Positions 5,344-33,046 of a stretch of DNA of 64,000 bases are shown here, in pieces. Where the stretch lies: assembly GCA_020161505.1 (NCBI GenBank), contig JAIUNY010000006.1, positions 1-64,000 on the forward strand. The letters run 5' to 3'. The stretch's first letter is position 1; each line of letters opens with the position of its first letter. Below the pieces are notes generated by a model. It had not been told where the DNA came from, did no database searches, and worked only from the letters and a program-made list of their open reading frames with translations. The position numbers and the translations under genes were made by a program. Origin of the DNA: Armatimonadota bacterium. GTDB taxonomy: Bacteria; Armatimonadota; Fimbriimonadia; Fimbriimonadales; Fimbriimonadaceae.

Positions 5344-6962
5344 TCAGAGATTCCTTGAATCGGGATCACGATAGGAGGTTGTCCGGGAAGATCGGTGGTG
5401 ACCGTCACGCTCCCGAGCAGAGCCCCCGCTCCCGACTTGCCTTTCCACTCCAAAACGAGCTTGATATCGCCGTTCTCCAGAGTCTCCGGCGTGGCACTGT
5501 AGTCCGGGCTGCTCGTCTCGATCTTCGTGATCTTGAAGGGCTTCCCGAGGCCCTGCAGCACCACATATCCCCGCGCCGCCGACCCCTTAAACTCCCCAAA
5601 GTAGAGAGTGGGAGGGAACGAAGCCACCCCGCGCTGAACATTGAATGCCCGGCTCGAAACCGGGATCAGGGGGTGATTGGTCTCGACAATCACGCTCGCC
5701 GGAACCCTGCCCTTGACGGCAGAAGGACTCAGAAGCACCGAAATCTTATATCCCTTCCGCGGAAGCGCAGGTTCATTGATTTCAGGATCAGCCAGCATCC
5801 CTTCCCACGGCTCCACCCGAGTCACCCCGGAAAGACCATAAACCTGCGTCGAGAGGATCTCCACCGGCTGATCCTCCTCCATCACAAAGTAGAAGACCGA
5901 AGACGCCCCGTTCTCGGTCATCTCCAAGATGCCACCTTCCGGACCGCCCAGCACGCGATGCACCGGTCGAACATAGCTCGTGACATCAATCCGCGTCACC
6001 GCACGCTCTGGGTCATCCGTGTAAACAAAAAGCGCCTTGCGCTGAGGCCCTTTGAAGTCCTTGGAGTTCATCAAGACCGACAGCAACCCAGTTGCCCCCG
6101 GGGCAATCGTGTCCGGAAAATTGAGCGTGAAGCAACTGCAATCCGGAACCACACGAACGGTGAGAGGAGCCTTGCCCCGGTTCACAATCTCGAACCTCTG
6201 CTCGGAAACCGTCCCTTGCACCACGCTCCCGGCATCCCACGATGTCGTCCCGAGATACGCACTCGGCACCGCATAAATCAGGCGCTCCTTGGCGGCCACG
6301 GCTTGCTTCAACCGAGCCACCACGGCCCGATTGGCGGTATGCATTTTTCGATGATCCAACCCAATTGGCCCCAATCGACCCCCGACCCCATCGGTGCGGA
6401 ACATGATCACGCCCGGCCTAGGAGCACGGGCAAAGCCGAGAGTGGCACCAATCGAATAAGCAAAATCGGCCGCAAATTGGTGAGACTCGATCACGGTCCC
6501 CACCGAAAGTCGTCGCAATCCAATCACCGACTCAAACCGAATATCCCCCGGTCCGGCACCATCGAACTCGACCATGCCTTTCGGGAGCCCCGTGACCTCA
6601 TCATTCGGAAGCTTTTCGCTGAACGAAACCGCCAGGTGCGGTATCTCGCCCCGCTTGGCTGGGCGGATCTCCAAGTCGGGAATCCCCCGCTTGAAGCTAG
6701 AGAGAACTTCCTGAACCATCCCCTCAAAGGTCGCCCGCTGAGCGGCGTTGACGCCTTCAAAGTCCACGCGATAAATCAGCACGTCCTCAGGGAACAGCTT
6801 CAGGACGCCTGCCGCAGCATCGAACTTCCCCGCTTCCAAGTGCTTCGCGGCGGTTGCCACCAACCGCTGAAACCCCGCCGACGAATTCACCGAAGGGATC
6901 GGGGCAATCTCTGCCGATCCCGCCGAGGCCACCACCACCATCGCGAGCAACGAACTAACCAT
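5340..6962 (-). CDS. Secreted DUF1573-domain protein
   Basis: The 540-residue protein has a likely signal peptide (first ~18 residues). A DUF1573 immunoglobulin-like domain lies near residues 240-330, with the family hallmark Cys pair in VVPDCSCFTLNFP and the PLTVRVV strand before it. A second beta-rich repeat region follows. The N-terminal part (about 60-200) resembles a matrixin-like or zincin-like scaffold but has no clear HExxH. A GAGGAT lies 8 nt before the ATG. It overlaps the downstream tetraheme cytochrome by 4 bp and is transcribed first, so both probably work at the cell surface or in the periplasm. Precise function is unknown. Confidence 0.75.
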   Translation of the reverse strand: MVSSLLAMVVVASAGSAEIAPIPSVNSSAGFQRLVATAAKHLEAGKFDAAAGVLKLFPEDVLIYRVDFEGVNAAQRATFEGMVQEVLSSFKRGIPDLEIRPAKRGEIPHLAVSFSEKLPNDEVTGLPKGMVEFDGAGPGDIRFESVIGLRRLSVGTVIESHQFAADFAYSIGATLGFARAPRPGVIMFRTDGVGGRLGPIGLDHRKMHTANRAVVARLKQAVAAKERLIYAVPSAYLGTTSWDAGSVVQGTVSEQRFEIVNRGKAPLTVRVVPDCSCFTLNFPDTIAPGATGLLSVLMNSKDFKGPQRKALFVYTDDPERAVTRIDVTSYVRPVHRVLGGPEGGILEMTENGASSVFYFVMEEDQPVEILSTQVYGLSGVTRVEPWEGMLADPEINEPALPRKGYKISVLLSPSAVKGRVPASVIVETNHPLIPVSSRAFNVQRGVASFPPTLYFGEFKGSAARGYVVLQGLGKPFKITKIETSSPDYSATPETLENGDIKLVLEWKGKSGAGALLGSVTVTTDLPGQPPIVIPIQGISE

Positions 6963-14219: not shown

Positions 14220-14265
14220 TGGTCGGGGCGACAGGATTCGAACCTGCGACCCCCTGCTCCCAAAG
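14220..14265. repeat. Left attachment site (attL), tRNA-Pro 3' fragment
   Basis: 46 bp identical to 33001-33046. It covers the CCA end, acceptor 3' strand, T arm, variable region and anticodon arm up to the anticodon loop (minus strand), then diverges. It lies 32 bp after the GH52 stop codon and is not a functional tRNA because the 5' half is absent. The 115 bp up to the next gene hold no feature I can identify. Confidence 0.95.
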
Positions 14266-14380: not shown

Positions 14381-14896
14381 CTAAAGAGGCCACTTTCCAG
14401 AAAGTCGCTCCACAACAAATCGATCCCGCTGGATGTCCGAGAGAGCTGTCGTCCTATTCCCAGTTCGCACATAAATCGTATGCGTCTGCTCGCCCGACTG
14501 AGACTTCTCCCGCAAATACGTTACGCCAGCGGCAGGCTTCACGAAAATTCGGCACACCCATCCCCCGGACGGGTTCACAAACTGCATCGTTACTTTTCCG
14601 ACCGGAAGCGGAAATAGGCATTTGACAATCGCCTCCTGCAAGAGGAGTTCAAATTGATCGAGATGATCTCGGTCGAAAAGCTCGTGGAGCTCGGCATCAA
14701 TCCCCGAGGGCTGTCCGGAATTATCTACACCGATTCTGAGTTCGCCGCCCTCCGTGTTCAGGAAGGCGGCGATCGTCTTCAGCACTCCCAACCTTAGCTT
14801 TGGATCCCTCGACCCCGTCCGAGAATTCCAGATGTAGGCAGCCTTGTTTTCAAGCGTCTGCCCTTCTGGCTTGGAGAGATCAGGAAGTTCGTGCAT
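14381..14896 (-). CDS. Schlafen AlbA_2-type putative nucleic-acid-binding protein
   Basis: The 171-residue protein matches the Schlafen AlbA_2 (divergent AAA_4) domain. The TLENKAAYIW segment holds the conserved Glu and Lys near residues 15-18. The core TIAAFLNTEGGELRIGVDN (about 41-60) is followed by SGID. AlbA_2/Schlafen domains bind or cut RNA/tRNA or DNA, and in bacteria they are often attached to defence or regulatory proteins. Here it stands alone, without the usual helicase or HTH C terminus. It is the last gene of a minus-strand cassette, 7 bp after the 142-aa gene. It may be the effector of that cassette (inference). Confidence 0.75.
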   Translation of the reverse strand: MHELPDLSKPEGQTLENKAAYIWNSRTGSRDPKLRLGVLKTIAAFLNTEGGELRIGVDNSGQPSGIDAELHELFDRDHLDQFELLLQEAIVKCLFPLPVGKVTMQFVNPSGGWVCRIFVKPAAGVTYLREKSQSGEQTHTIYVRTGNRTTALSDIQRDRFVVERLSGKWPL

Positions 14897-14903
14897 TTTT
14901 GCC

Positions 14904-15332
14904 CTAGAAATGCTTCATGCGAACCGTAAAACTCTGGCTTTTAGTCACTCCGTCTTCGAGGAAAGCGAACTCGCCTCGTAAGTAAGTGTATTGCCTTTCG
15001 GAGTACCCTTTGCCAATCAGCCTGAAAAACCGGATCAGCCCGAGTTCAAAGCTGAAAGGGCCAGATCGCGAAATCTCTGAGGCACCCCAGTCAATCGTTT
15101 GATCTAGTAGGCTTACTTCTGTCAGCACTCCATCTACGATATCCAGGGCATATTCCTCAAATTCGGCCACTCCCAAAAAGTTGACGATTCCCTCGGTGAA
15201 GATCTCACCGGGAAGTTCCTGTCCGACCTGACCCACGATCTCGACCATTCCTAGCCCAAAGCGGTACTCAGGATTTGTTGGGTTGACATCAACAGGTGGC
15301 GGAACGATATCTACACCATAACCATTTGGCAT
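14904..15332 (-). CDS. Hypothetical island protein (142 aa)
   Basis: I recognise no family. The protein is acidic and hydrophobic-rich with no signal peptide. Predicted strands (RFGLGMVEIVGQV, ALDIVDGVLTEVSLL, FSFELGLIRFFRLIG) suggest an all-beta or alpha/beta domain. A clear AGGAGA Shine-Dalgarno lies 8 nt before the ATG. It is 42 bp downstream of the STAND ATPase and 7 bp upstream of the AlbA_2 gene, so the three are very likely one operon. Its position between a sensor-like ATPase and a nuclease-like domain makes it a candidate adaptor, regulator or antitoxin. No sequence motif decides between these. Confidence 0.75.
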   Translation of the reverse strand: MPNGYGVDIVPPPVDVNPTNPEYRFGLGMVEIVGQVGQELPGEIFTEGIVNFLGVAEFEEYALDIVDGVLTEVSLLDQTIDWGASEISRSGPFSFELGLIRFFRLIGKGYSERQYTYLRGEFAFLEDGVTKSQSFTVRMKHF

Positions 15333-15374
15333 CTATTTACTCTCCTTTGGTGAGCGATGAATCGCTTCACTCGA

Positions 15375-18026
15375 CTATGTTGACGCCTTCAGTTCAAAAA
15401 GTGCAACCCGAAGTCTTGAAAAAACAGTAGCAGGGTCTTGTGCACGGCCCCTTGCCTCTGCTTGAAGCCACGATTCGGTCCGGAAGGCACGTATCTGCTC
15501 TTCAATCCTGATCCGACCAATGGTTGTTGACGGAGACTTTTCGTAGAGCACCAGCGAGGCACCGAAAATTTCGGCTGCGAAATCTGGGTTAGACTCCGCA
15601 AACAAATGCGCGCACCTGAGAAGTAGCGCCGGCGCCTGCTCCATGCTTCCAAAGGTTTCCAAGACTTCAACCGCGCGTAGAGTAGAATCAAATGCGAGCT
15701 CTGGTTTGCCAGTACTTTGGCAGGCCTCCAGCCAGTTTACCGCGAAGAGAAGTAGAGCTGATTCCCGCATGTAGGGGAATTGCGTCTGAAGTCGGGCTAA
15801 CTCATCGTAGGCGTCAGATGCCTTTCCAAGATCCAGCAAGATTCTTGCCTTGTTGTTGACAAAAAGCCGCATATCCTCAAATTGATCTTGGTTTTCACAA
15901 ACCTTAAGCCCAGCATCGAAGAGCTCGGCCGCGCGAGCAAGCTGGCCCCCGGTTGCCATAATGGTTCCGAAGTTTCTGTAGATCCGTGGAAGCTCGTGCT
16001 TAAGCCCTGTTTGGAGAGCACGATCGAGAACTTTCTGCATAGCACTAGCTGCGGCAGTAAGGTCACCCAAGAGATAAAGAAAGAGAGCGCGGGCCTGCCT
16101 GAGCTCGGAGGAGTTCTCCAGGAGCCATGGAGAACCCGCCAACAGATCTAAACCATCTCTTGCACCACCAAAGCTAAGCCAGTATCTCACCTGCGCTTCA
16201 ATTGCTAACTGCGCCCCCGTCAGCTTCTTGGCTGCACCAAGCTCCAGACAGCATAAAATCATTGTATAGCGGAGCTTTTCATCAACGTAGTCGAACATCG
16301 CGGCTGCCCCGTCAGATGCAGCCCGAGCTTCGATACACATTTGGAATGCACGCGGTGCGTATCGTTCCTTCACATGATCTATCACCTCTTTACTGACGGT
16401 CTCTAACACGAACTGCCTAAACGCCTCTGTCATCTGAAAGTACTGCCGACCATCAACGACTCCAGACTTGCGGACAATGCTTCGGCGATAAAGCTCCCAG
16501 AGCTTCTCCGTCTCCTCAGAAAAGCCGGTGAGAACCCGGAAATCCCGGCTGTCAAACTGCCCTCGGAACACCGCGAGGGTTTCGGTGACGCTCCGCTGCT
16601 CGTCAGATAGCAGGTCAAGACTCCACTTCAAAGTGGCCCTGATTGTCTGGTGCCGCGGCTCATAAGCTGTCTCACTCCCCGAGAGCTTGAGGAGTGACCT
16701 CTCAAGAGATTCCCAGCACTCCTGAACGCCGCTGAGAGCCGCCTGGTAGGCGGCATGCTCGATCGCGAGTGGAACCCCGTCCACCAGGTGAAGGAGACTG
16801 ACAATCGCTGTGACGTCCTTCTCATCCAGCTTGCTGCGCGATCCCTGCTCTTCGAACCGATCCAGAAACAGTTCGCCAGATCCCGTTTCAGATATCTTTT
16901 GAAGTGAATCTATATCTTTTTCAGGCAGATCGAGAGTGTCGAGCTCGAAAACCGCCTCACCCTTGAGTCCAAGAACATGCCTTGAAGTTGCAATAATCCG
17001 GCAAAGTGGAAGTTCATTCAAGATTTCTTGAACAAGTCTTCGCACGCCGAGCTCAACATGCTCGCAATTATCAAGGACGAGAACAAGGTTCTTCCTTCGG
17101 TAGATCTCTAGAATCTCTCCCAGTTTCTGACCGCTTGCCTTGAACGATCTCAGAACCTGGCCTTCAACCTGATCGTCCGAATGGATTTCGGCAAGCGAAA
17201 TGAACCGAACAACCTCGGCCCCAAGATGGCGAGTAGCCGCGGCAAGGTGCATCCCAAACCGGGTCTTCCCGATTCCTCCTGGCCCCTTGATGGTGACGAG
17301 CGGAAACTTCTGCAGTAAGTCCAAGGCGCCCTCAAGCTCTTTGTCCCGGCCAACGAAGCTATCAAAGACGAATGGAAGGTTGTTGTCAAGAAGCGAGAGA
17401 CCGATCTGCTCAAGCCGTGGCCTGATCGCTCCCTTTGGAACAAGGGCAAAGACCGGCTCCGGCGAGAGAAGATCTTCAAACCTCACGATCCCAAGATCTA
17501 CAAAATCGTCTTCATCCCAACCGGAGAGACTCTGCTCTAACGTCCTTCCCACGAGAAGCGGAAAACTGTGTGGCTGGGAATCCAGAAGAGACTTCAGCAT
17601 CCTGCGTCTCACAGAAACCGAAACACCTTCGCACGCCGCTGCTGAAATCCTCGCCTCTGGAACGAGATTCCGAATCTGTCCAACCGTTCCAAACAGTTCT
17701 GAGAATGATGAAGTGAGAAGCTCGAACCAGCACCTGGATCCCTCTTCTCCCAGAATCCGAAACTCTCCCAGTTCCCGCAGAGTAACAACCTTCCCCACCG
17801 ACTCCCGAGGAATCTCCAGTATCGCGAGGTAGGAAAGAAATGAACTCACTCGGAACTGGAGGGTACCACCACAGGGCTGGAATTCCTTAGTTAAATGGGA
17901 ACCGACATATGCCGGGGCACAAGCCCGTGTATGAGCGTCCGTGTCCGAAAGATAGCCGCTGTCACAGGAAGCATAGGCTAAGAACTTGGTCCCAACCGGG
18001 AGCTCCGCGCATGTCAAGTTGGACAT
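15375..18026 (-). CDS. STAND (NB-ARC-like) ATPase with degenerate cyclase-like N terminus and TPR-like C terminus
   Basis: The 883-residue protein has three parts. Residues 1-215 resemble the class III adenylate cyclase module plus linker that precedes many bacterial STAND ATPases (FVDLGIVRFEDLLSPEPVFAL, then NNLPF), but the metal-binding Asp residues and usual GDG motif are absent. The ATPase follows: FVGRDKELEG, Walker A GPGGIGKT (248-255), Walker B LVLVLDN (314-320), IATSRH and GVPLAIEHAAYQAA. The C-terminal ~350 residues are helical repeats (Leu/Ala-rich, TPR-like). STAND proteins oligomerise on ligand binding and often sense phage proteins. It starts 75 bp after the DUF4276 gene and heads a tight three-gene cassette. 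GC is visibly lower than in the host genes. Confidence 0.85.
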   Translation of the reverse strand: MSNLTCAELPVGTKFLAYASCDSGYLSDTDAHTRACAPAYVGSHLTKEFQPCGGTLQFRVSSFLSYLAILEIPRESVGKVVTLRELGEFRILGEEGSRCWFELLTSSFSELFGTVGQIRNLVPEARISAAACEGVSVSVRRRMLKSLLDSQPHSFPLLVGRTLEQSLSGWDEDDFVDLGIVRFEDLLSPEPVFALVPKGAIRPRLEQIGLSLLDNNLPFVFDSFVGRDKELEGALDLLQKFPLVTIKGPGGIGKTRFGMHLAAATRHLGAEVVRFISLAEIHSDDQVEGQVLRSFKASGQKLGEILEIYRRKNLVLVLDNCEHVELGVRRLVQEILNELPLCRIIATSRHVLGLKGEAVFELDTLDLPEKDIDSLQKISETGSGELFLDRFEEQGSRSKLDEKDVTAIVSLLHLVDGVPLAIEHAAYQAALSGVQECWESLERSLLKLSGSETAYEPRHQTIRATLKWSLDLLSDEQRSVTETLAVFRGQFDSRDFRVLTGFSEETEKLWELYRRSIVRKSGVVDGRQYFQMTEAFRQFVLETVSKEVIDHVKERYAPRAFQMCIEARAASDGAAAMFDYVDEKLRYTMILCCLELGAAKKLTGAQLAIEAQVRYWLSFGGARDGLDLLAGSPWLLENSSELRQARALFLYLLGDLTAAASAMQKVLDRALQTGLKHELPRIYRNFGTIMATGGQLARAAELFDAGLKVCENQDQFEDMRLFVNNKARILLDLGKASDAYDELARLQTQFPYMRESALLLFAVNWLEACQSTGKPELAFDSTLRAVEVLETFGSMEQAPALLLRCAHLFAESNPDFAAEIFGASLVLYEKSPSTTIGRIRIEEQIRAFRTESWLQAEARGRAQDPATVFSRLRVALFELKAST

Positions 18027-18101: not shown

Positions 18102-18710
18102 TCAAGTGCCGGCGATTGTTGCTTCGAATGCCTTAAACGACGCGGATCGTCGAAGCTTGGTCAGCTTAGCTTGGCTGAACATAGCCGCATACTCCGGCCC
18201 CGTAGGCGGTCGATTACAGCGAAGATAGAACCATTTATGCAGCCGATGCTTCGGTCTGTCTATAGTGTCTGGTTGGTTCGAGCCTGAGATGCTCGGCATC
18301 GAGCCACGTCCGATGTTTCTCAACATCGAGGAAACCACCGAGGCATCCGTTAAGAGCCATGCTTCTAGTTCCCGCCGAGAACAAACCGTGAAAATGTTTG
18401 CAGGCGGATGTCCGGCATCGTTGATTCCATTCCAAGCGATTGCTTCGCAGGACGCCTGATCCGCATCGAGATCGCCACTCCACGGGGGGCAGTTATCCCA
18501 AACAATTACCACTCGCTGACAGCCTGAAGCGCGCAAAGCAGCAACATGGTTGTTAGCTTCCCGCAACACATCAGGCTTACTTCCGCCCGCTACCACGACC
18601 GGTTCGCGAGAAATCCCCTGTTCCTCTGCAATCCGCAGGCATAGAGCCCGGATGGCGTGTACATCACCGGCATCTTCATTTGAGCCTTCAACGACAAAGC
18701 CGATCCTCAC
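18102..18710 (-). CDS. DUF4276 (TOPRIM-like) protein
   Basis: The 202-residue protein begins MRIGFVVEGSNED, with the TOPRIM-type Glu after a beta strand. It continues with VVIVWDNCPPWSGDLDAD, carrying acidic residues, then RRELEAWLL. This is the layout of DUF4276 proteins, commonly encoded next to OLD/RecF-like ATPases. Its start overlaps the stop of the 405-aa ATPase by 4 bp. By analogy with two-component OLD/TOPRIM nucleases it is probably the nuclease or nucleotidyl-handling partner of that ATPase. Activity is not established from sequence. Confidence 0.8.
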   Translation of the reverse strand: MRIGFVVEGSNEDAGDVHAIRALCLRIAEEQGISREPVVVAGGSKPDVLREANNHVAALRASGCQRVVIVWDNCPPWSGDLDADQASCEAIAWNGINDAGHPPANIFTVCSRRELEAWLLTDASVVSSMLRNIGRGSMPSISGSNQPDTIDRPKHRLHKWFYLRCNRPPTGPEYAAMFSQAKLTKLRRSASFKAFEATIAGT

Positions 18711-19924
18711 TGAAGTTGCCTCGCGGCCTCGGATAAGACTCCCATCGTGTAGAGACGTCCAGGGCTGAAATGATCCCGAAACCCTTCGACGTGGCTGCTC
18801 TCAGAGGGTCTGAGAAAGTGTGGCGCTCCCTCCCGACGCTGAACAAAGAGAACTTGATCCAAATCAACCTGATCAAGAAGATGCGGCGAGTGAGTTGTGG
18901 CGATGACTTGAAGCTTCTTTGATCTGGTGAGGAATTTGATCTCATCCATCACAAGCCCCAGGGTACGTGGGTCAAGGCCGTTCTCGATTTCTTCAATGCA
19001 AAGAAGAGTCGGAGGTTGTGGGCGTCTCAACGCAATCAAAAGAGCTACCAACCGAATAGTTCCAGTAGAGAGCATCCATCCCGGAACTGTATATCCACCT
19101 TCATCAAACTCAATGAAACGACTGGCGATAGCGCCTAAGTCCTGCCTTGGCTCCACTCGTTCACCATAGCCCAGAATGCTTCGCATGGTCTCATCGATAG
19201 ACCAAAAAGCTCGTTGTTCCTCTTCGGAACCATTCGCGAGACGATGGAGAGCCTCAGCGACATCCGACCCGTCGCGGTTCATTGTGTTGACTCGAACATC
19301 AAGGCGCTTAGTAACCGGCAGCCCCATTATCTCTGGGACAAGCCCGAGCATCTGCCAGTGAATGAAGAAGCGGCCCAGTTCTTGTTCCAAGAGCGTTCGT
19401 TCCAGGGGCAATCTTGATGATTCCAGCTTCTGCTTGCTCCCAGACTGGATGCCTTCAACAATGCAATCAAGGTGCCGAAACTTGGACCAAGCTCCTCCAA
19501 TCGATACCAGCTCGTCCGCAACGCGAACCCCTTCAGAATCTCCGTACTTTGCGAGCTCACAGCGAACTTGATAGGCAGAACCGGGCCGAATAGCGTCGGT
19601 CGTGCTCCCATAAACTCGTCCCGCCGCACTAAATTTCAGTCGTTCGGATACCTTGTTCAAGTTCGTTTGCTTAGACAGCTTCCCTTTTTTCCGACCCTTG
19701 TGCACAATGTGTTCGATGGCCTTTGAGCCTCTGAAGGTTTCGTCGAGCGGAGCCGTTGCTAGGCTCCGGAGCAACTCAATGGCTTCAATCAAACTGCTTT
19801 TCCCGGATCCATTGTTTCCAATTAGCAACGTGAACGGACTCAACTCGATTTTTCCAGAATCTACGATCGACTTATAGTTGTTGACTCTGATCGATCTCAG
19901 CGGCAACCAATTGCTTGTGGCCAT
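18707..19924 (-). CDS. AAA family ATPase, RecF/OLD-like (AAA_21)
   Basis: The 405-residue protein has an ABC-type ATPase core. The start LRSIRVNNYKSI leads into Walker A IGNNGSGKSS (about 36-45). Walker B and the catalytic Glu are in LLCIEEIENGLDP (about 305-317), and the H-loop is in VIATTHSPHLLDQV. There is no long coiled coil, so it is of the AAA_21 class rather than SMC or RecN. It overlaps the methylase by 1 bp upstream (TAATG) and the DUF4276 gene by 4 bp downstream. It probably powers or regulates the operon's DNA-targeting complex, as in helicase-methylase-ATPase systems. Confidence 0.88.
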   Translation of the reverse strand: MATSNWLPLRSIRVNNYKSIVDSGKIELSPFTLLIGNNGSGKSSLIEAIELLRSLATAPLDETFRGSKAIEHIVHKGRKKGKLSKQTNLNKVSERLKFSAAGRVYGSTTDAIRPGSAYQVRCELAKYGDSEGVRVADELVSIGGAWSKFRHLDCIVEGIQSGSKQKLESSRLPLERTLLEQELGRFFIHWQMLGLVPEIMGLPVTKRLDVRVNTMNRDGSDVAEALHRLANGSEEEQRAFWSIDETMRSILGYGERVEPRQDLGAIASRFIEFDEGGYTVPGWMLSTGTIRLVALLIALRRPQPPTLLCIEEIENGLDPRTLGLVMDEIKFLTRSKKLQVIATTHSPHLLDQVDLDQVLFVQRREGAPHFLRPSESSHVEGFRDHFSPGRLYTMGVLSEAARQLQ

Positions 19925-22900
19925 TATGCGATTCTCCCCGCTAAAACGGAGCGGTAGGCAGCGAGTCCGGCGTCTTTGACGCCTGAGTCAACGAGGGGGA
20001 AAGTAGAGAGCACATGTTTGAACTCTTCCTCTTGCAGACCATATAGATGAGCAACTAGGGCGTCCAGTTCGGACCGTAGGACAGACCGAACGTGAGGCTC
20101 CGTTGCAGCGAGCGACCTAGCCCAAGGGCACTGACCCGGTTTGGGGTTGGGCGCCGAGGGCTCCAGGCCGATCTCTGCGTCAACTTCATTCCATAGATCG
20201 GCGAACGCCTCGGTGGTGCAGATCAGCCGGGCCGCGCGACGAACGATGGGGGCGAAGTGCGGGTCCGCCTTACTAAGGCGCGGCACCGGAATTTGATAGA
20301 CGAAGAACATTGTTAGCTGAGTCGCTACCCGTTGTCGCAATGCGTAATCCACCGTGAACGAACTCATCAATGCCGAAAGAAGCAGCAACTCAGATTCGGA
20401 CATAGCATAACCTTCTCGCTTCGATGCATTCAGGCTGTGCCCATAAAACACACCCTTGGGCAGAATTGAGCAGACCATTGTGCGTTCATTCGTGTTGCCA
20501 GTAATCGACCGGTGGGCGAAACGGTAACGCTGGTAGTCCAGCACCTGGCCCTTATCCTCCGTGCGTCCCAGGATCGACTTTCGACCGACCTTCTCATCGA
20601 CGAAGTATCGGCCCTCCGCGTACTGGTGGGTGAAGTGCCAAATCATCTTGCCTTCGTACAGCACGAGCTTGCCTGGCCCGTTGTCTCCGAAGAGCGCCGC
20701 ATCGTTGGTCATATCGAACTCCCGGGTCAGCTTCAGTTGCCAAGCACCCGGAACTGCGTCCCCCAGTGCAGGAAAACACATCATCTTTTCCGAGATTTGG
20801 GCATCCAGCGGGTTCTGGAACTCTACGACGGACCAAGTGTCCGGAGAGAGCGACTTCACCGTCTCCATCGTAATCCGCATCCCGACTGACTCCGGGAAGC
20901 GGCTCAGATCCGAGACATCATGCCGCATAAATGCGGCAGGAAATGCTTCCGTATGCCCGCCCTTGCGATAGCTGAGGACGACGAACTTGAAGCTCCGATG
21001 AACACCTTCAAAAATCTCCTTTCGGTTCTCGAAGCAGAACAGCCCAGTCACCGTCGCGTTCGAAAAGAGCAACTTCCTGAGACCCGTTGTTCCGAGGTCG
21101 CTATAGATGCCACTCGGAACGACGATCCCGCAAAGGCCATCCGGACGCAGCAAGTGATAGCACCGCTCGATGAAAAGCTTATAAAGGTTGACATCCGTTC
21201 CCGTCTTCTTTCCGCCAACAATCGCGGACTGGTTGGAGTATTCAGGTGCCGCCCGGAAGTATCCGCTCTGATGGGGGAACTGGGAGAGGTAATCCAAGTA
21301 CTCCGCCCGAATGGAATCGTCCTTGACCAAATCCTTGAGAAGGGCATCAAACTCTTTTGCCGTCGAAAGTCGCCGATTGGCATCCGGCGAATAGGGATAG
21401 CAAAACTCGCGCGAAATCGGCTTCAGAGTTTCCCAAGGTGGGTTGGTGATGATCGCATCAAACCCTCCGCGCATGTTGAGAATCTCGCCGAACTCAAACC
21501 CCCAGTGGAACGGCTCAAGATCCTCGATATCCGCTGCTGTCACCGCGCGCTTTTTCGGCTTGCCCAACTCCCACTTTCTCTCGTCCCAAGTCGCTTGCTC
21601 AAACTTGACATCCAGGTCTTCGAACGCCTGTTGCAGAATGTCCGCCAGCACCGGGCGGGCTTCTGCTTCTTTGTCCTCAACTTCCTTCCGAAGTGAGACT
21701 AGATCGTCGGTCAGGGCACCGGCATAGCGATAGTTGCGGACTGCCCGGTTGCGTTCATCAAGCAATTGGCGGTAAGTCTTGTCCGGAGCGAAGAGGCTCG
21801 CCGTCGTGTTCCTCAATCGCTGAGTGGCTTCGTATTCGGCATCATTCACCCGGGTCAACCCGATCAGCGAGTTCCCCGCCAAGATGTTGAAGTCGATGTT
21901 TGGCAGCGGTTCAAGATCATCTACCGACTTCGCCGACGCGACGAGGGTCATGAACAGCCGGAGCTTGGCGATTTCAGTGGCTTCCTCCATGAGGTCGACC
22001 CCGTACAAGTTGTCGGTGATGATCGCTTTTTTGATCGCATACTGCTCTTTGTCTGGGTTGACCTTCCACTTGGTGGTCAGGTGGTGATCGAGCCACTCTT
22101 TGTCGTGAAAGCGAAGCCAGCCGATGACAGCGGAGTAAACCGTGATCAAGGTTTTCAGTGCCGCCACGAGGAACGCCCCAGAGCCAACTGCGGGGTCCAA
22201 GATTGTTAGGCTGGGGAGCACATCGTGCAAAAGTTTTCGTGCGGTGATCTTGTCCAATCGCACCAATAGTTCGGGCACAGAATCGAACTTCTTGCCCGGG
22301 GGTAAACCATCAATATCGGGCTCACTAATCCGGTCGAGAATCAGCCGGTAGGTCGTCTGTTCACACAGATACTCCGTTATTTCGGGCCGAGTGTAGTAGG
22401 CACCAAACTCCTTCTGGTTGATGTACTTTTCAAAGATGTAACCCAGCACATCGGGATTGATGTCGTCATCGCTTTCCCCGGGGATATCGTTGAGGTTCCA
22501 GGAATAGCGACCGAAGAGTGCGAGCAGCTGCTCAAACGCCTCGTCCGGGACCTCGATTTTGTGTTTCTGCTCCAACTTGTGCGGAAGGAATAAGCCGCCG
22601 TTCAGGTACTTCACCTGGCCGGTCAGTTGGATGGCTTCGGCAGAACGCTTCGATTCCGGTTTGGCGAACGCCTCAAAGAACAGCGCATGGAGAAACTCGG
22701 AGTAGTAGCGATCCTTGCCCTTTTCTTTGCTCTGGGCCAGCTTCCTTTCGAGGTACTCCCCGTCACCATTGTCGATGAAGAACTTCTTCTGAAGGAAGTA
22801 GATGAACATCATCCGGTTGAGCAGGACACTGGCGTACCACCGCCGGTCTTGGTCATCCCGAATGCCTCGGATCAAGTTCGTGAAGTGAACGCGTTGCTCA

Positions 22901-23427
22901 TCGTAGTCCTTGAAGAACTTCTTGATAACCCGCTCGATGTCGAGTGCCCGCTGAACCTTCTTTGCGGCTTCGAGCAGCGCGAGCTGGCCTGAGTCATCCA
23001 GGTCGCTCAGATCCACCGCCATCGCGGCAATTTTTGAGATAAAAAGGTCTCCCGGCTGTCCCTTGAAAAAGTGGTGCTCGCGGGGTAAGCGCTTGTTCCC
23101 GTCACGCTTGACCCAGAACCAAAGGCTCTGGGTTCGCTTTTGATCCACGAAGATCAGCACATGCTCGAACCGAAGCTTGGCGATTTCTTTCGAGACGACT
23201 TGCCGTATGGCTCGGGAAGGTATAGTCCCCGATTCGCTTTGGACTTCAAACGCCTCAATCCCGCCAAGAACGCCCACTCCGCGAAAAGTAAACGCCTCAC
23301 CACTGACGAGGAGCCGTTCAGACTTCCGCTGACTCGGGTTGTTCCACCCGAGCTCTTCGACGAACAGATTCTGAAACCTAAACTCTTGAAGAAGATCGCG
23401 AACTCTACTTACGTTGAGCTTGCTCAT
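19924..23427 (-). CDS. Eco57I-type DNA adenine methyltransferase of a defence operon
   Basis: The 1167-residue protein has an amino-methyltransferase core. Motif I is DPAVGSGAF (411-419). FGAYYTRPEITEYL lies just before it, and motif IV NPPW is near residue 660. A long C-terminal target-recognition-like region follows. The N-terminal ~165 residues contain beta strands with acidic residues (GIEAFEV, HVLIFVDQ) that could be a nuclease-like domain, but I see no complete PD-(D/E)xK motif. An AGAGGT lies 6 nt before the ATG. It overlaps the helicase stop by 4 bp. It probably marks self DNA in a restriction-like system with the helicase and ATPase. Confidence 0.9.
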   Translation of the reverse strand: MSKLNVSRVRDLLQEFRFQNLFVEELGWNNPSQRKSERLLVSGEAFTFRGVGVLGGIEAFEVQSESGTIPSRAIRQVVSKEIAKLRFEHVLIFVDQKRTQSLWFWVKRDGNKRLPREHHFFKGQPGDLFISKIAAMAVDLSDLDDSGQLALLEAAKKVQRALDIERVIKKFFKDYDEQRVHFTNLIRGIRDDQDRRWYASVLLNRMMFIYFLQKKFFIDNGDGEYLERKLAQSKEKGKDRYYSEFLHALFFEAFAKPESKRSAEAIQLTGQVKYLNGGLFLPHKLEQKHKIEVPDEAFEQLLALFGRYSWNLNDIPGESDDDINPDVLGYIFEKYINQKEFGAYYTRPEITEYLCEQTTYRLILDRISEPDIDGLPPGKKFDSVPELLVRLDKITARKLLHDVLPSLTILDPAVGSGAFLVAALKTLITVYSAVIGWLRFHDKEWLDHHLTTKWKVNPDKEQYAIKKAIITDNLYGVDLMEEATEIAKLRLFMTLVASAKSVDDLEPLPNIDFNILAGNSLIGLTRVNDAEYEATQRLRNTTASLFAPDKTYRQLLDERNRAVRNYRYAGALTDDLVSLRKEVEDKEAEARPVLADILQQAFEDLDVKFEQATWDERKWELGKPKKRAVTAADIEDLEPFHWGFEFGEILNMRGGFDAIITNPPWETLKPISREFCYPYSPDANRRLSTAKEFDALLKDLVKDDSIRAEYLDYLSQFPHQSGYFRAAPEYSNQSAIVGGKKTGTDVNLYKLFIERCYHLLRPDGLCGIVVPSGIYSDLGTTGLRKLLFSNATVTGLFCFENRKEIFEGVHRSFKFVVLSYRKGGHTEAFPAAFMRHDVSDLSRFPESVGMRITMETVKSLSPDTWSVVEFQNPLDAQISEKMMCFPALGDAVPGAWQLKLTREFDMTNDAALFGDNGPGKLVLYEGKMIWHFTHQYAEGRYFVDEKVGRKSILGRTEDKGQVLDYQRYRFAHRSITGNTNERTMVCSILPKGVFYGHSLNASKREGYAMSESELLLLSALMSSFTVDYALRQRVATQLTMFFVYQIPVPRLSKADPHFAPIVRRAARLICTTEAFADLWNEVDAEIGLEPSAPNPKPGQCPWARSLAATEPHVRSVLRSELDALVAHLYGLQEEEFKHVLSTFPLVDSGVKDAGLAAYRSVLAGRIA

Positions 23428-26400
23428 GGATTTACCTCTACCAAGCCAAGGGAGCAGATGATGCGCGGCTCTCGATGCTCACGGTCCTCTTCGACAATAC
23501 AGAGACGGTCTTCACTCCTCAAGGCGATGCAAAGTTCGGCGAGAGATTCGTCGGCGATCCCGGCCTTGAGTTGGCGGTTGAGGGAGTCCGTCGCGGTCTG
23601 CCGAAGCGGATAGCGGTAGATGTCCTCGATGGTTCGAAGCAGTTCCTCGCTTTCGAACAGGGTGCCCTTGATCTTCTCGCCGTGAGCTTTGAGCCGCTCA
23701 TAGGTGCGGAATCTCGCGCCGGAAGGCTTGCCGAGTTGCCCGCCGATCTTGGATTCCTCCTCGACCATCCGCTCGACGCCGAGCCTCACGATATCGTGAT
23801 GGTTCGCCGCCTTGGGAGCGGCGGGAGTATCGGGTTTGCAAGCGGCGGCGCGGAGAATCGCCAGGGGCGACTCGGTGACCGCCTTGCCCGTCTGATCCAC
23901 CCAAGACAAGGCGTCTCCGCCGTCGGCAGTCCGCAAGTAGACCAGCGCGCCGTGGGGCTTGCTCGGCTCGGCGGCATGAGCCTTCGCCGAGAAAACGACG
24001 TCGGGAAGCGATTCGATGACGGCTTTGAGGCTCGGATCGGCGTCGGTCGCGTTCTTCCAGATTTGAAGGGCGTGGGAGGACAGATCGACCTCGCTGTCGT
24101 CCTCTCCGTCGAGGACGCCGGACTTCTCGTTGTAGAGGTCGCGATACTTGTCATCGACTTTCAAATCTTCGAAGAATTGCTCATCGGCGCCGACGACTTC
24201 AGCGTTTTCGGTAAGGCGTTGCCGAACCCTACCGCGAAGGTTGATGATGCGGTCCACGCCGTCCATGGGATAGAAGCTGTAGCAGTAAATCTGTTCGTGC
24301 TTCTGGCCGATACGGTCCACACGACCGGCGCGCTGGATGAGCCGGATGATGGCCCAGGGAAGATCGAAGTTCACGACGACGTGAGCGTCTTGGAGGTTCT
24401 GACCTTCAGAGAGAACGTCCGTCGCGATCAGGACGCGAAGTTCTTCGTCTGACTTGATGAGTTCCCGCTTATCGTTGCTGACAGGGCTGAATCGCCACGC
24501 CAGTCGGGTAGGGTTCTCGCTGTCGCCGCTGACCCCCTCAATCTGCTTGACCCCAAGCTTCTTCAGCGCGTCGGTCAAGTAATCGACGGTATCCGCGAAC
24601 TGCGTGAAGACCAGAACCTTCTCGTTCGGGTGAACGACCGTGAGCAGTTCATGAAGCTTCTGAAGCTTCTTGTCGAGCGAGGCGTCCCACGAGCCATGAG
24701 CTTTGAGAATGCCGCATAGGGCGTCACTGTCGGCCTTTAGGTCCTTGAGGAGGGACTCGGCGAACAGGCCAGAGCGAAGCCATTTGAACCGCCGCTTGTA
24801 CTTGCTCGCGTATTGATCGTACACCTCCTTCGCCTTGGCGTTGAACGCTTCCGGGTCGTGCATTGGTGCGCGAACGCTTGGCGCATCGGAGTCGGTCAGG
24901 TCCTCGGTCTCCGCGTCGAAGATGCTTCCGGTGATGGCCGTATCGTCGCTGTCGATGTCCACAACGTCGGTGTCGAGCATCGAAGGATCGGAGGTGCCGA
25001 TTGGAATCGGCAACCCGGCTTCGATGGCATGGATGTAGATGTAGTTGCGGAGGATGTGCCGCTCAAGCGATTGGATGAAGGCGAGGCCGCTGCTTTCTAG
25101 CCGCTTGAAGAGATTGGTCCGGCAGAATCCCATGAGCCGCTTTCCGGCCCGTCCTAGGTCACTCAGAACCTTGGCTTCTGCTGGCGTCGGCGGCGTGTGG
25201 GGCTTGCTGGCGACGTAGTTACCAAGGCCATAGCGCGGAAGATTTAGCTTGTTGATCTCGCGTTCCACGGCGAGGCTGAACAGCTTGGCGTACGGATCGG
25301 TCTTGCTCTTTTCGTCGATCTCGAACTTGACCGTTCGCGGGATGCGATCCGGGAAGTAGGTCCGCTCGCCATTCTCCAGCAGAAGGTGTTTCCGCCCGTT
25401 CTGCTCGTCGGTCTTAGCGTAGTGTTCCTTGATGAATCCGCGCGTCCTGCGGACCATATAGAGCCGCATGAGTTCGCGCCAGTCGTCGGCGTAGGGACTC
25501 TTCTCGAACGCCGCAAGGCTACGAAGCGGACACTGATGCTTCGCTTGGAACTGGACCTCGCCGACCTCGCGGATGAGCATGTCCGGGCGAACGCCGATAT
25601 CTTGATGCTCGGGCACGAAAAGCCGAAGCTGAGCACCGAGGTCGAGGTACGCTTTGTTGTAGGGCGTCGCGCTTAACAGGATGCAGCGAGATTCGTTCTT
25701 GTTGATGTACTCCTGGATCGCTCGGTAACGGCTTCCTTCGCGGTTCCGCAAGTTGTGGCTTTCGTCCAGGATGATTAGCCTGTAACGGCGCATCTCGTGA
25801 AGTCCGCCGTAACGCTCTTCCGTGCCGTCCGCACCCTTGCGTGTCTTGGGAGCAACCTCGGTGATGGAAACGACCTTCGCGCGAAGCCGATACCGATGCG
25901 CGTATTCTTCCCACATCGGCTTGAGGTTCTTCGGGCAGATGATAAGCGTTTCGAGGCCAAGATCGTCCTCAAAGATTCGAGCAAGAGCGGTCGCCATGAG
26001 GGTCTTGCCGAGACCCACGACGTCACCGAGGATGACGCCCCTTCGCCGATCGTTATTGAGGTGATGCGCCGCAATCTTTACGGCGGCAACCTGATATTCG
26101 AAGAGTCGATTGCCGAAGTCGGCAGGAATCTTGAACTCAGATAGGCCGGTTCGCGCTTCCTGGGCAAGGTGATAGGCGATATTCAGATAGATGTGATACG
26201 GCGGGATGACGGTTGGCCTGGCCCAACTCGCCTCGATAATCTCAATGAGCTCCTGCGAGATGTCTAGGCACCACTTATCTGCCCAACGATCCTCGAACCA
26301 CTTGGCGAGCTTCGCCGACGCGTCGCCTTCAACAACGTCAACGTTCAATTCGAACTGCTTCATTAGCCCAGCAAAGGTCAAATTCGAGCTACCGACGTAG

Positions 26401-26867
26401 CCCACGATTGGCGCCGCGATGTCTGCCCGGTGAACAAGATAGAGCTTGGCGTGTAGACTATTCCGAAGAAATAGCTTCACGACGAGCTGTCCAGTTCGAA
26501 GCTGATTTGCCAGGCGCTGGAGATTCTTCTCATCGAATTCGGTAGGTGCACCGATCGTGAGTTGCTTTCGAAACTCCTCGGCCATTTTCTTCCGAAGCTG
26601 AATAGCTTTCGCATTGTCGATGCCGTCCTCCCGAAGGAGGCTGTACACTTGGCGAACCTCTTCTTCGCCCATAGTCTGCATCCCGACTAACAGGCGGCAA
26701 CTCCCCTCATTTCCACCTGGGAACCTGTCTTCCACCACTTGGCCCAGGCGATTCCACCCCCTGAGATTAAAGTAGCCAACGCAAAAGTCCGCGCTCGTCG
26801 CTGTACGAAGCATGTCCTCCAGCGCTGGCATGAACTGCAATTCGATGTTGTCGTAGATTCGCGGCAT
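23424..26867 (-). CDS. SNF2-type helicase with N-terminal phospholipase D domain
   Basis: The N-terminal ~250 residues form a PLD-like nuclease module with one HKD motif (LHAKLYLVHR, then GSSNLTFAGL). The superfamily 2 helicase core follows: motif I GDVVGLGKT, motif II LDESHN, motif III LLSATPYNK and motif VI LIQRAGRVDRIGQ. A central ~250-residue insertion separates the RecA-like lobes. I start at 26867 (MPRIYDNIELQF); an upstream ATG (27098) would add 77 residues of low-complexity, non-conserved look that overlap the leader hairpins. It is the first gene of a four-gene overlapping operon. PLD-helicases of this kind occur in DISARM-like and helicase-methylase-ATPase defence systems. It probably translocates on and cuts invading DNA. 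Confidence 0.88.
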   Translation of the reverse strand: MPRIYDNIELQFMPALEDMLRTATSADFCVGYFNLRGWNRLGQVVEDRFPGGNEGSCRLLVGMQTMGEEEVRQVYSLLREDGIDNAKAIQLRKKMAEEFRKQLTIGAPTEFDEKNLQRLANQLRTGQLVVKLFLRNSLHAKLYLVHRADIAAPIVGYVGSSNLTFAGLMKQFELNVDVVEGDASAKLAKWFEDRWADKWCLDISQELIEIIEASWARPTVIPPYHIYLNIAYHLAQEARTGLSEFKIPADFGNRLFEYQVAAVKIAAHHLNNDRRRGVILGDVVGLGKTLMATALARIFEDDLGLETLIICPKNLKPMWEEYAHRYRLRAKVVSITEVAPKTRKGADGTEERYGGLHEMRRYRLIILDESHNLRNREGSRYRAIQEYINKNESRCILLSATPYNKAYLDLGAQLRLFVPEHQDIGVRPDMLIREVGEVQFQAKHQCPLRSLAAFEKSPYADDWRELMRLYMVRRTRGFIKEHYAKTDEQNGRKHLLLENGERTYFPDRIPRTVKFEIDEKSKTDPYAKLFSLAVEREINKLNLPRYGLGNYVASKPHTPPTPAEAKVLSDLGRAGKRLMGFCRTNLFKRLESSGLAFIQSLERHILRNYIYIHAIEAGLPIPIGTSDPSMLDTDVVDIDSDDTAITGSIFDAETEDLTDSDAPSVRAPMHDPEAFNAKAKEVYDQYASKYKRRFKWLRSGLFAESLLKDLKADSDALCGILKAHGSWDASLDKKLQKLHELLTVVHPNEKVLVFTQFADTVDYLTDALKKLGVKQIEGVSGDSENPTRLAWRFSPVSNDKRELIKSDEELRVLIATDVLSEGQNLQDAHVVVNFDLPWAIIRLIQRAGRVDRIGQKHEQIYCYSFYPMDGVDRIINLRGRVRQRLTENAEVVGADEQFFEDLKVDDKYRDLYNEKSGVLDGEDDSEVDLSSHALQIWKNATDADPSLKAVIESLPDVVFSAKAHAAEPSKPHGALVYLRTADGGDALSWVDQTGKAVTESPLAILRAAACKPDTPAAPKAANHHDIVRLGVERMVEEESKIGGQLGKPSGARFRTYERLKAHGEKIKGTLFESEELLRTIEDIYRYPLRQTATDSLNRQLKAGIADESLAELCIALRSEDRLCIVEEDREHREPRIICSLGLVEVNP

Positions 26868-27032
26868 AGTTAATCGGCTTGCCCCCCCTAAGTTTTTGCC
26901 CCGAGCCCTACCCGCAAGGAGTTGTCGCTCTGGCACGCCATTAGAGTACCACTCACTAAAGGCATCCTGGAAAGCGCAAAGACGAGATCGCTCGTTCGGG
27001 CCGGGCATAGACGTTTCTGGGAAGAATGCGAA

Positions 27033-30821: not shown

Positions 30822-31868
30822 ATGAATCACAACGATGAACAAATCAGTTTCGCCAGAGCAGCGGAGATTCTCAAATGCAGTCGGCAGAACATGACGACCT
30901 GGACGAAGCCGAAGAGTGCGCAAGATACTCAGTCCCTATTGACGCGGGGCGTTAAGGGCAGTTGGACAGTCTCCAAGAATCACTGCACTGCTTACCGGCT
31001 CATGGCGGACTTTCTTCAGTACGACAAGCCTCGTGTCGAGATGTTCACGCGCGATGCCGCGCTCCAGTACATTCTCCGGCTTCATAATGCGCTCGACGTG
31101 AACCAAAGGCACATCGCTGAACTTCAGCGAGAAGTTCAGCCGGGATCGAGTGTGACTGCGGACTCCCCTCCCCAGTCCGGTGTGAAGAATGTAGGTGAGG
31201 CAGCTCCGAAGACAGGGATCGATCAATCTGCAACTTCGGCAAGAACAGACGTGACACAATCCGAAGAGATGAGAGCAGTCGAACCATCGGAGCAACCGAG
31301 CGAGATGCGCCCAGTAGCGGAAGTGATCAAGCCCCAGCCCGAGTCAGATCAACAACACGACGCCCACGTAAAGCACCTGCAGGGCATGATCGCTCGTGGC
31401 TACGTCCCTACGCCTGAGGAAAATCTCCTCCTGCCCGTGCTTAGTCGAGCAAGTCTGTCAATCCATGACGTTGCGCGGTTGACGTCTTGCCCCTTGGCAT
31501 TCGTCGAAGAGATTGCCGCGCAAGGTTTGCTTACCCGGTATCAGACCGGGTACGACCCGATGCAAGTGCTTTCAAAGCGACGAACTTTTGCTCGTGAAGT
31601 GGTCGTTCTTCGGTATCGAATGCAAGATGATAGCGACTTGGATGACGAGGACTATCAAGACTTCGACCCTGATGAGCGCATCTTGGTCGGAATGAGAGTT
31701 TGGGATCTGGGAGCTGGAGACATGACCGGGACAAGTCGCGGATTCATCTATGAAACCGAAGTGCGGATGCTGGACTGGGAGACGCTGATCTCGTACATGG
31801 CAAGTTTGACGAACGCCAGCGTCCCCGATATCGTGTCCTACGCCGCTCAGCGGTTTTGCAAGTCTTAG
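30822..31868 (+). CDS. HTH-containing hypothetical protein (excisionase/regulator-like)
   Basis: The 348-residue protein begins with a MerR/excisionase-like helix-turn-helix (ISFARAAEILKCSRQNMTTW, about 8-27). A Gln/Ser/Pro-rich linker (about 110-180) follows. A second helical module SLSIHDVARLTSCPLAFVEEIAAQ without its last four residues lies near 210-230. The purine-rich GGGGAGAGAGAAGAG directly before the ATG is a strong ribosome-binding site. The end overlaps the convergent integrase by 4 bp. Position and the first HTH suggest an element regulator or recombination directionality factor. Its length is far above that of typical excisionases, so that role is tentative. Confidence 0.62.
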   Translation: MNHNDEQISFARAAEILKCSRQNMTTWTKPKSAQDTQSLLTRGVKGSWTVSKNHCTAYRLMADFLQYDKPRVEMFTRDAALQYILRLHNALDVNQRHIAELQREVQPGSSVTADSPPQSGVKNVGEAAPKTGIDQSATSARTDVTQSEEMRAVEPSEQPSEMRPVAEVIKPQPESDQQHDAHVKHLQGMIARGYVPTPEENLLLPVLSRASLSIHDVARLTSCPLAFVEEIAAQGLLTRYQTGYDPMQVLSKRRTFAREVVVLRYRMQDDSDLDDEDYQDFDPDERILVGMRVWDLGAGDMTGTSRGFIYETEVRMLDWETLISYMASLTNASVPDIVSYAAQRFCKS

Positions 31869-32878
31869 ACTTGCTGCTGAGCAACGCCAAGCTGGCTGAT
31901 CGGGCTCCATTTTTCATGCGCCACCCGAAGATCGTTTTCATCGATCTTGAGGTACCGCTCCAGCGTCCGGATGTCCGCATGACCCATCAGGTCACGAAGC
32001 CGGTAGAGATCACTCCCATTTCGGAGCATCAGAATGGCGAAGGTACGTCGAATCTTGTGAGGAGAGACCGAGAACCCCAGTTCCCTTCCCAGTGTCTTGA
32101 AGATCATCTGAATTCCCGAAGTTCCAAGAGGTCCAAACTGACCAATCCAGAGCTGGGATTCAGCAAGGTCTGGACGCATCCTTACGTACTGCTGCAGATA
32201 CCTCAGAGAGATTGAGCTCAGAAAGACGATTCGATCCTTCTCACCTTTCCCGCTTCGAACGAAGACCCTCCCAGTACGAAGATCCACATCCCCGATCCGG
32301 CAGCTTGATGCTTCGGCCGCCCTCATGCCCGTGTCCAGCAAGAAGTAGAACAAGGCAAGGTTTCGCATCTCAAACAGTTGAAGCCCGGTTCGTTGACTCC
32401 TTGGAGTCTTCTCCCAGCCACTCAGAGACTGAATCACGCGCTGGATCTGATCCGCCGTAAGCGGCTCAAGGATTTTCTTGGGAAGCCTTGGCGCTTTGAG
32501 AGCCTTCACAGGATTGGTCTCGATGATCTCAGAGATCTCAAGAAACTTGAAGAAGCTCCGAAGGACCCGAAATGCTCCGTGAACGTAGCTGGAGCTGCGC
32601 TTTCCTCGTGGCCCTGGTTGCTGATGCCAAATGATGTGCTGGCGCAAGATCTCCGGAGTCAGTTCCTGGATGTCGCGTGCGCCGATCTGCTCGCACCAGG
32701 ATGCAAGACGGGCCAGAAAGAATGAATAGACCTGGATGGTTCGGGGGGAAAGTCTGCGGGCGGTGCAGTCCTCAAGATACTGCTCGATGAGCTCCGAAAT
32801 GAGCGTCGTTTGCCAGGGCCGATTTTGTGCAAGTAGTGTCATGACTGTTCTCGATGAAACAGCCACTTTGAACCTCAT
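31865..32878 (-). CDS. Tyrosine recombinase / integrase
   Basis: The 337-residue XerC/D-like protein has a SAM-like core-binding N domain (about 15-105) and a catalytic domain. The catalytic residues are visible: Arg in LDTGMRAAEA, Lys in GKGEKDR, His-x-x-Arg in SPHKIRRTF, His in LMGHADIRT and Tyr in LERYLKI. It lies 122 bp from the tRNA-Pro that forms the attachment site and is transcribed away from it, the standard layout for tRNA-targeting integrative elements. It probably catalyses integration and excision between attL and attR. Confidence 0.93.
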   Translation of the reverse strand: MRFKVAVSSRTVMTLLAQNRPWQTTLISELIEQYLEDCTARRLSPRTIQVYSFFLARLASWCEQIGARDIQELTPEILRQHIIWHQQPGPRGKRSSSYVHGAFRVLRSFFKFLEISEIIETNPVKALKAPRLPKKILEPLTADQIQRVIQSLSGWEKTPRSQRTGLQLFEMRNLALFYFLLDTGMRAAEASSCRIGDVDLRTGRVFVRSGKGEKDRIVFLSSISLRYLQQYVRMRPDLAESQLWIGQFGPLGTSGIQMIFKTLGRELGFSVSPHKIRRTFAILMLRNGSDLYRLRDLMGHADIRTLERYLKIDENDLRVAHEKWSPISQLGVAQQQV

Positions 32879-33000: not shown

Positions 33001-33046
33001 TGGTCGGGGCGACAGGATTCGAACCTGCGACCCCCTGCTCCCAAAG
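33001..33046. repeat. Right attachment site (attR) within tRNA-Pro
   Basis: 46 bp identical to 14220-14265; identity ends inside the anticodon loop. Crossover by the adjacent integrase somewhere in this block would excise a circle of about 18.8 kb and leave one intact tRNA gene. Confidence 0.95.

Follow-up and report, generated by a model that had tools for sequence, protein, structure and literature searches.

The stretch of DNA analysed here (the window, 64,000 nucleotides of contig JAIUNY010000006.1, assembly GCA_020161505.1) comes from an Armatimonadota bacterium of the family Fimbriimonadaceae. Between positions 14,381 and 18,026 it carries three minus-strand genes, which a first-pass annotation had proposed as a candidate undescribed defence cassette consisting of a STAND ATPase, a protein of 142 amino acids (aa) and a solo AlbA_2 domain. 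All three open reading frames (ORFs) were confirmed and the spacing is as tight as had been described, with 42 bp between the STAND gene and the 142-aa gene and 7 bp between the latter and the AlbA_2 gene. The cassette consists of the following genes:

15375..18026, minus strand: STAND ATPase of 883 aa, assigned from its ORF, weak Pfam matches to AAA_16, nSTAND3 and TPR_12, an alignment of four STANDs and a comparison with cyclase domains
14904..15332, minus strand: 142-aa protein with no fold assigned, an ORF between the STAND and AlbA_2 genes with homologues at the same position in two other genomes
14381..14896, minus strand: solo AlbA_2 (Schlafen/SAMD9-type) predicted RNase of 171 aa, assigned from PF04326, a 31-row alignment, a structure model and fold matches

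With domain limits placed by eye, the STAND protein comprises a decayed class III cyclase-like domain (residues ~1-209), a STAND NTPase (~210-560) and TPR-like repeats (~561-883). Its AAA_16, nSTAND3 and TPR_12 matches were all below threshold. The three closest relatives gave clearer TPR matches, which together with TPR_12 supports the helical-repeat C terminus that had been assigned to it. In the alignment, Lys254 of Walker A and the DNCEH motif with Asp319 of Walker B are conserved in all four related STANDs, and cassette-type STANDs are 807-883 aa in length. The 142-aa protein, described earlier as unrecognised, indeed could be assigned to no family with Pfam (E ≤ 1), PADLOC, NCBIfam or PHROGs. 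The AlbA_2 protein matched PF04326 with E 3.8e-15 and 56.9 bits, well above the curated cut-off of 25.3, and is a free-standing member of SLFN_AlbA_2, as the first-pass annotation had it.

The AlbA_2 structure was modelled from the 31-sequence alignment with a predicted local distance difference test score (pLDDT) of 93.5 and a predicted template modelling score (pTM) of 0.89. When the model was compared with known structures using VIA-align, the SAMD9 tRNase domains 7ksp (Z 13.0, root-mean-square deviation 3.5 over 158 residues) and 9o0d (Z 12.3, 3.7 over 154) ranked at the top, followed by Schlafens 14, 5, 11 and 13 at Z 10.0-10.6 and by RNase E at about 5. SAMD9 was also the first match in Foldseek (E 3.4e-6), and in the sequence profile the Schlafens led (SLFN14, E 3e-10), ahead of rSAMD9 (E 7.7e-6). 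Glu11, Glu16 and Lys18 are near-invariant among the 31 rows. Judged by spacing, Glu11 and Glu16 may correspond to Glu205 and Glu210 of SLFN13, for which the accessible part of PMC5862951 gives Glu205, Glu210 and Asp248 as active-site acids, and the E-x-K motif may correspond to the E196-x-K198 pair given for SAMD9 in the accessible part of PMC12331169. The model and its matches point to a SAMD9/Schlafen-type RNase. The profile also matched PDB entry 9ylu (CbCash, 297 aa) over positions 18-144 of 157 (E 6.8e-6); a single literature search gave no paper on CbCash.

Profile searches covered 291 Armatimonadota genomes, 113 of them from the same order, and other phyla were covered by one pattern scan of genome contigs. 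Searches with the 142-aa protein or its profile found homologues in three genomes, counting the window's own, out of 113 in the order and 291 in the phylum; 22 further genomes with profile matches only at E 0.07-0.9 were not counted. At all three loci (the window and genomes G037 and G038) the order STAND, small protein, AlbA_2 on one strand is the same while the surroundings differ, and the co-occurrence for which the first-pass annotation had proposed a check was thus seen at both of the other loci having a 142-aa homologue. G038 belongs to the same family, Fimbriimonadaceae, and its cassette lies together with an AbiEii gene in a 9.8-kb stretch between tRNA-Trp and its 50-bp repeat, with a G+C content of 0.57 against 0.62 and 0.61 in the flanks; no integrase was seen among the ORFs of this stretch. 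The G037 cassette has a thiolase gene on one side and an RHS-like gene on the other, and no tRNA lies near it (the labels thiolase, RHS-like, S9 peptidase, TIR and PutA-like were all assigned by eye). Two of the three cassette loci are therefore tRNA islands with direct repeats, of 46 bp in the window and 50 bp in G038, and they are independent of each other.

A profile of the three cassette AlbA_2 proteins matched 42 of the 291 genomes at E ≤ 1e-5, and of its five best matches three were the cassettes themselves; the other two lay on contig 2 of G037 and on contig 2 of the window's own genome. The last of these scored 52.1 bits against PF04326 and comes immediately after a STAND gene belonging to the cassette group, the stop and start codons overlapping as ATGA and no 142-aa gene being present; no tRNA was found in the 13 kb read there, where an integrase was not searched for. 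Because this contig-2 pair lacks the 142-aa gene, the STAND and AlbA_2 genes appear to be the core and the small protein optional. Of the three-part cassette first proposed, the STAND and AlbA_2 pairing therefore holds, whereas the layout does not depend on the 142-aa protein. Homologues that never occur together had been named beforehand as the outcome that would speak against a cassette; STAND and AlbA_2 stand together at four loci. The second G037 copy of AlbA_2 (L061, ~6390-6900) is broken near its 5' end and has no expected in-frame start, and no STAND was found within the 13 kb read around it.

In other sequence sets, the 142-aa protein had no match in PDB or plasmids, none of 62 stretches in viral contigs was confirmed, and one of 53 stretches from the pattern scan of genome contigs was confirmed, this being the G038 contig. 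AlbA_2 had no match in phages. Eight plasmid records matched it, and in the four inspected no STAND was annotated alongside, their gene tables being incomplete. All nine other AlbA_2 proteins of the phylum that were scanned are domains of larger proteins. Four of them are type IIG (Eco57I-like) enzymes, 1,227-1,304 aa long, that end in AlbA_2 (L075 4746-8630, L077 3461-7372, L080 4677-8531 and L181 2189-5869), in which it could be an RNase tail. The other five are 361-647 aa in length with no further Pfam match; in the three genomes read, 420-647-aa proteins with an AlbA_2 end lie beside an S9-peptidase-like gene (L063, L067 and L076).

STANDs of the cassette family were present at E ≤ 1e-40 in 80 of the 113 genomes of the order, and a profile of the four cassette STANDs retrieved cyclase-STAND-TPR relatives at up to 420 bits. 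Such proteins of Fimbriimonadia (G037 contig 2, L173; G038 contig 175, L174) share the STAND family, the domain order and a following small gene with the cassette, but unlike the cassette they have intact cyclase residues and no adjacent AlbA_2. Both metal-binding Asp residues of the class III cyclase were present in 27 of the 28 relatives that carry a cyclase and in none of the four cassette STANDs; relative L112, which has a different N domain, was left out of this count. The TDxEGS, GD and NxxxR cyclase motifs were found in none of the four AlbA_2-linked STANDs, and PF00211 matched both relatives scanned but none of the four, although the end of the cyclase-like domain can still be recognised in them by eye. 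These comparisons bear out the decayed cyclase-like N domain of the first-pass annotation. When a profile of the 31 AlbA_2 sequences was run against 55 downstream regions (3 of 58, L148, L158 and L171, were excluded where the contig ended) and 35 STAND loci of relatives, nothing was found, whereas all five control loci were recovered. Cyclase loss and AlbA_2 presence thus coincide in four of four cassette STANDs and in none of the 28 relatives. Among other loci of the family, a cyclase-STAND gene in G019 (contig 5, L140) lies 111 bp upstream of a gene for an 859-aa protein with a TIR-like start, and G067 (contig 279, L177) has two tandem cyclase-STAND-TPR genes and then a 167-aa small protein.

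In the trees, the four cassette STANDs lay on one side of a branch with support of 100/99 among 31 rows, and again formed one clade, with 100/100, among 18 rows including the two next-closest STANDs. The solo AlbA_2 proteins formed one clade with 100/99 among 35 rows, three of which (L034, L043 and L047) were taken from the wrong strand and represent noise. G037 and G038 paired together in the STAND trees and the AlbA_2 tree alike. Between cassettes, identity was 46-53% for AlbA_2, 33-45% for the STAND NTPase, 18-29% for the TPR part and 19-26% for the N part, a pattern of high AlbA_2 and low TPR identity as expected of a conserved effector and a fast-changing sensor.

The 142-aa protein is 41-47% identical between the three cassettes, mostly above the STAND NTPase region, and is therefore apparently under constraint. 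Its AlphaFold (AF2) model had a pLDDT of 35.8 and was not used. A small gene lies within ~60 bp of several STANDs of the same subclade, encoding 138 and 139 aa in the two closest relatives, 145 aa in G008 and 196 aa in G046, and in 23 of 55 STAND downstream regions an ORF of 100-320 aa lies on the same strand no more than 120 bp away. A motif of the G-x-x-P-I type, picked post hoc, occurs in 6 of these 23 small ORFs and in 42 of the 1,866 ORFs of the whole DNA set retrieved, a background that contains repeated copies. When the label 'small gene present', set by eye, was placed on the tree with one row omitted, it required 2 changes, whereas 300 shuffles needed 8.6 on average and never fewer than 5. 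Considering that small genes follow same-subclade STANDs that have no AlbA_2, the 142-aa protein seems to go with the STAND. From its position, the post hoc motif and the by-eye tree label, we suggest with low certainty that it is a partner inherited with the STAND, and our guess is that it acts as an accessory, either an adaptor or a co-sensor. The 142-aa family was also tested for homology with the other small proteins linked to STANDs, and this was rejected, since a three-member profile searched against 3,078 ORFs recovered none of these proteins. At L132, L176 (G008 contig 76) and L127 (G064 contig 3) the STAND is followed by two small proteins in succession with GYVPII or GFDPII motifs, which suggests a duplicating partner family.

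The island around the cassette was described at first as tRNA-borne, and the following features agree with this:

14220..14265: left attachment repeat of 46 bp, an exact copy of part of tRNA-Pro
33001..33046: right attachment repeat inside tRNA-Pro (33001-33077, minus strand)
31865..32878, minus strand: tyrosine integrase of the cassette-bearing element (PF00589, E 1.2e-27)

As 46 bp of tRNA-Pro are repeated exactly at 14220-14265, the stretch between the repeats was taken as an integrated element, and the cassette lies directly inside the left repeat at its left end. Besides the integrase, the cargo includes a PLD/SNF2 helicase, a type IIG restriction enzyme, an OLD-like AAA and DUF4276 pair and an ArdC-like protein. 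Adjoining the cassette on the minus strand, 18102-19924 encodes the OLD-like AAA ATPase (HEC-01A, E 1.1e-44) and then an overlapping DUF4276 protein, which was under the Pfam cut-off and only weakly matched HEC-01B. At 19924-27098 (minus) the type IIG restriction-methylase (PADLOC, E 3.6e-114) overlaps the 1,224-aa PLD and SNF2 helicase, and the two are possibly one restriction unit. An ArdC-type protein (ArdcN and a zincin-like metallopeptidase; 27135-28052, minus) shares the element with these restriction genes. The alternative that the AlbA_2 and 142-aa genes belong to a HEC-01-like neighbourhood was rejected, as no HEC-01-like genes were present among ORFs of at least 200 aa at the two other loci. 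tRNA-Pro lies beside the same right-flank gene in two genomes of the genus (2 of 6 loci scanned), and a search for the empty site with the GH52 flank gave no match in 7 other genomes of the genus.

From these data we propose, with a probability of roughly 0.55, that the cassette is a STAND-gated defence module with split genes, in which a separate AlbA_2 RNase, probably cutting tRNA, would bring about abortive infection. The accessible part of PMC10907252 describes antiviral STAND proteins with an N-terminal effector, a central NTPase and a C-terminal sensor, and by analogy sensing would fall to the TPR part and oligomerisation to the NTPase. The former would recognise a product of infection, after which the STAND domain would oligomerise in an ATP-dependent manner and recruit or activate the separate AlbA_2 protein; this protein would be a metal-dependent RNase, with tRNA as its most likely substrate, and would shut down protein synthesis in the infected cell. 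Of this scheme, the sensing, the oligomerisation, the nuclease activity and the defence role are inferred. The proposal is favoured by the same gene order at three loci together with a fourth, ATGA-overlapping pair and matching STAND and AlbA_2 clades, by two tRNA islands, one of which carries restriction and HEC-01-like genes and the other AbiEii, by the cyclase decay that coincides with AlbA_2, by the fold matches of the AlbA_2 model, by the conserved effector and fast-changing sensor seen in the identities, and by the G037 copy of AlbA_2, which has neither a STAND nor an in-frame start. We also suggest, more tentatively and at somewhat below even odds, that an effector swap took place in a bacterial NLR-like receptor: the cyclase would have decayed, a free AlbA_2 tRNase would have taken over in trans, and the small protein would serve as an adaptor, so that the SAMD9 arrangement would exist in a form split over two or three genes.

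Several points weigh against the proposed defence module. In the window, the third acidic position of AlbA_2 is Asn59 while the three other cassette copies have Asp; this position probably equals that of SAMD9L Asp241, for which an Asp-to-Asn change in some SAMD9L proteins is given in the accessible text of PMC12331169. In the fold search SAMD9 was tied with the uncharacterised bacterial protein DIP2311 (3lmm, Z 12.2), the template modelling (TM) scores in the top Foldseek rows were a modest 0.45-0.54, and tRNA is named as the most likely target from the resemblance to SAMD9 and SLFN13 alone. Just four copies of the pair were found, all from one bacterial family; as they make up a single clade, the joint occurrence of cyclase loss and AlbA_2 counts as one evolutionary event rather than four. 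Furthermore, both STAND trees gave long-branch warnings, with the two long branches of the window and contig-2 STANDs meeting. The alignment of the N domain is uncertain, placing an Asp in a single metal column, out of two, for three of the four cassette STANDs and in both columns for none, and all five cyclase residues checked were present in just 20 of the 28 relatives. The conservation of the 142-aa protein also fits badly with a dispensable status.

AfsR-type regulators are switches of gene expression that respond to a signal, and the cassette could work in a comparable way, with the STAND as the signal-dependent switch and AlbA_2 as a DNA- or RNA-binding regulator that is no nuclease. This would suit three plasmid relatives of AlbA_2 that are annotated as ATP-binding and lie among transport or metabolic genes, an active site weakened by Asn59, and a STAND family as large as the one in this order. 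However, we consider a regulator unlikely given the near-invariance of Glu11, Glu16 and Lys18, the SAMD9 and Schlafen RNases among the closest folds, a STAND without any helix-turn-helix match in Pfam at E ≤ 1, and two loci that are islands carrying other defence genes.

It is rather improbable that the genes were merely transferred together, with the STAND and the 142-aa protein acting jointly as in the relatives and AlbA_2 on its own. The pair was kept in four contexts with matching clades and one ATGA overlap, and the loss of the cyclase coincides with AlbA_2, even though several STAND relatives have a small downstream gene but no AlbA_2 and the nine scanned AlbA_2 relatives are parts of larger proteins. 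About equally improbable is an addiction module resembling a toxin-antitoxin pair, in which AlbA_2 would be a toxin silenced by the STAND or the 142-aa protein and would maintain the element. While the small genes, their tight spacing, the tRNA elements and the broken state of the unaccompanied G037 copy would agree with such a module, an ATPase of 807-883 aa with a fast-changing TPR part would be unusual as an antitoxin, and the contig-2 pair has neither the small gene nor a tRNA in the stretch read.

Bacterial Schlafens are reportedly treated in a preprint by Taboada et al. The cassette shares with the Schlafen RNases the AlbA_2 domain, the spacing of Glu11 and Glu16, a rank above SAMD9 in the sequence profile and Z scores of ~10, but its AlbA_2 protein of 171 aa has no helicase or kinase part and is apparently controlled by a separate STAND. 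Near BREX loci, Schlafen RNases fused to a kinase-like part and a winged helix-turn-helix are described in the accessible part of PMC12839542. The animal antiviral tRNases SAMD9 and SAMD9L carry AlbA_2, SIR2, a STAND P-loop of the GGT/S type, TPR and OB in one chain, as far as the accessible parts of PMC5445408 and PMC12331169 (the latter for the tRNase) describe them. The cassette resembles them in pairing an AlbA_2 nuclease fold (Z 13.0) with a STAND NTPase and TPR and in its E-x-K motif, and differs in its separate genes, the extra 142-aa protein and the decayed cyclase at the STAND N terminus. No SIR2 or OB domain was matched in the cassette proteins by Pfam, and Walker A reads GKT in the window, G037 and G038 and GKS in the contig-2 copy. 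Based on the separate genes, these missing domains and the GKT/S P-loop, the cassette is not a member of the SAMD9 family, though it may work alike.

Avs and bNACHT systems share the STAND NTPase and a C-terminal repeat region with the cassette, but their effector is fused at the STAND N terminus (PMC10907252, accessible part), where the cassette has a decayed cyclase-like part, its own effector being the second or third gene. The type IIG enzymes with a C-terminal AlbA_2 draw on the same phylum-wide AlbA_2 set, but there it is fused to a methyltransferase and comes without a STAND. PADLOC gave no model at E 0.01, the best being PD-T4-6 (E 0.038) and PDC-S60 (E 0.058), and NCBIfam had no fitting model. 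In titles and abstracts, a coverage outside of which preprints and most subscription papers lie, we found no paper on a STAND paired with a solo AlbA_2. In agreement with the first-pass annotation, which knew of no named system with these parts, the STAND and AlbA_2 cassette was in no catalogue searched, and we rate it as a variant of the STAND-plus-effector kind.

Taken as a whole, the finding would mean, if true, that a STAND immune receptor can give up one output and acquire a different one in trans. The cassette would further provide a small bacterial counterpart of the control of a SAMD9-like AlbA_2 tRNase, which is hard to study in a human protein of more than 1,500 residues, and the split genes make the gating step open to tests in which parts are mixed. 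For the Fimbriimonadia themselves, it would suggest that their many cyclase-STAND-TPR genes encode immune receptors.

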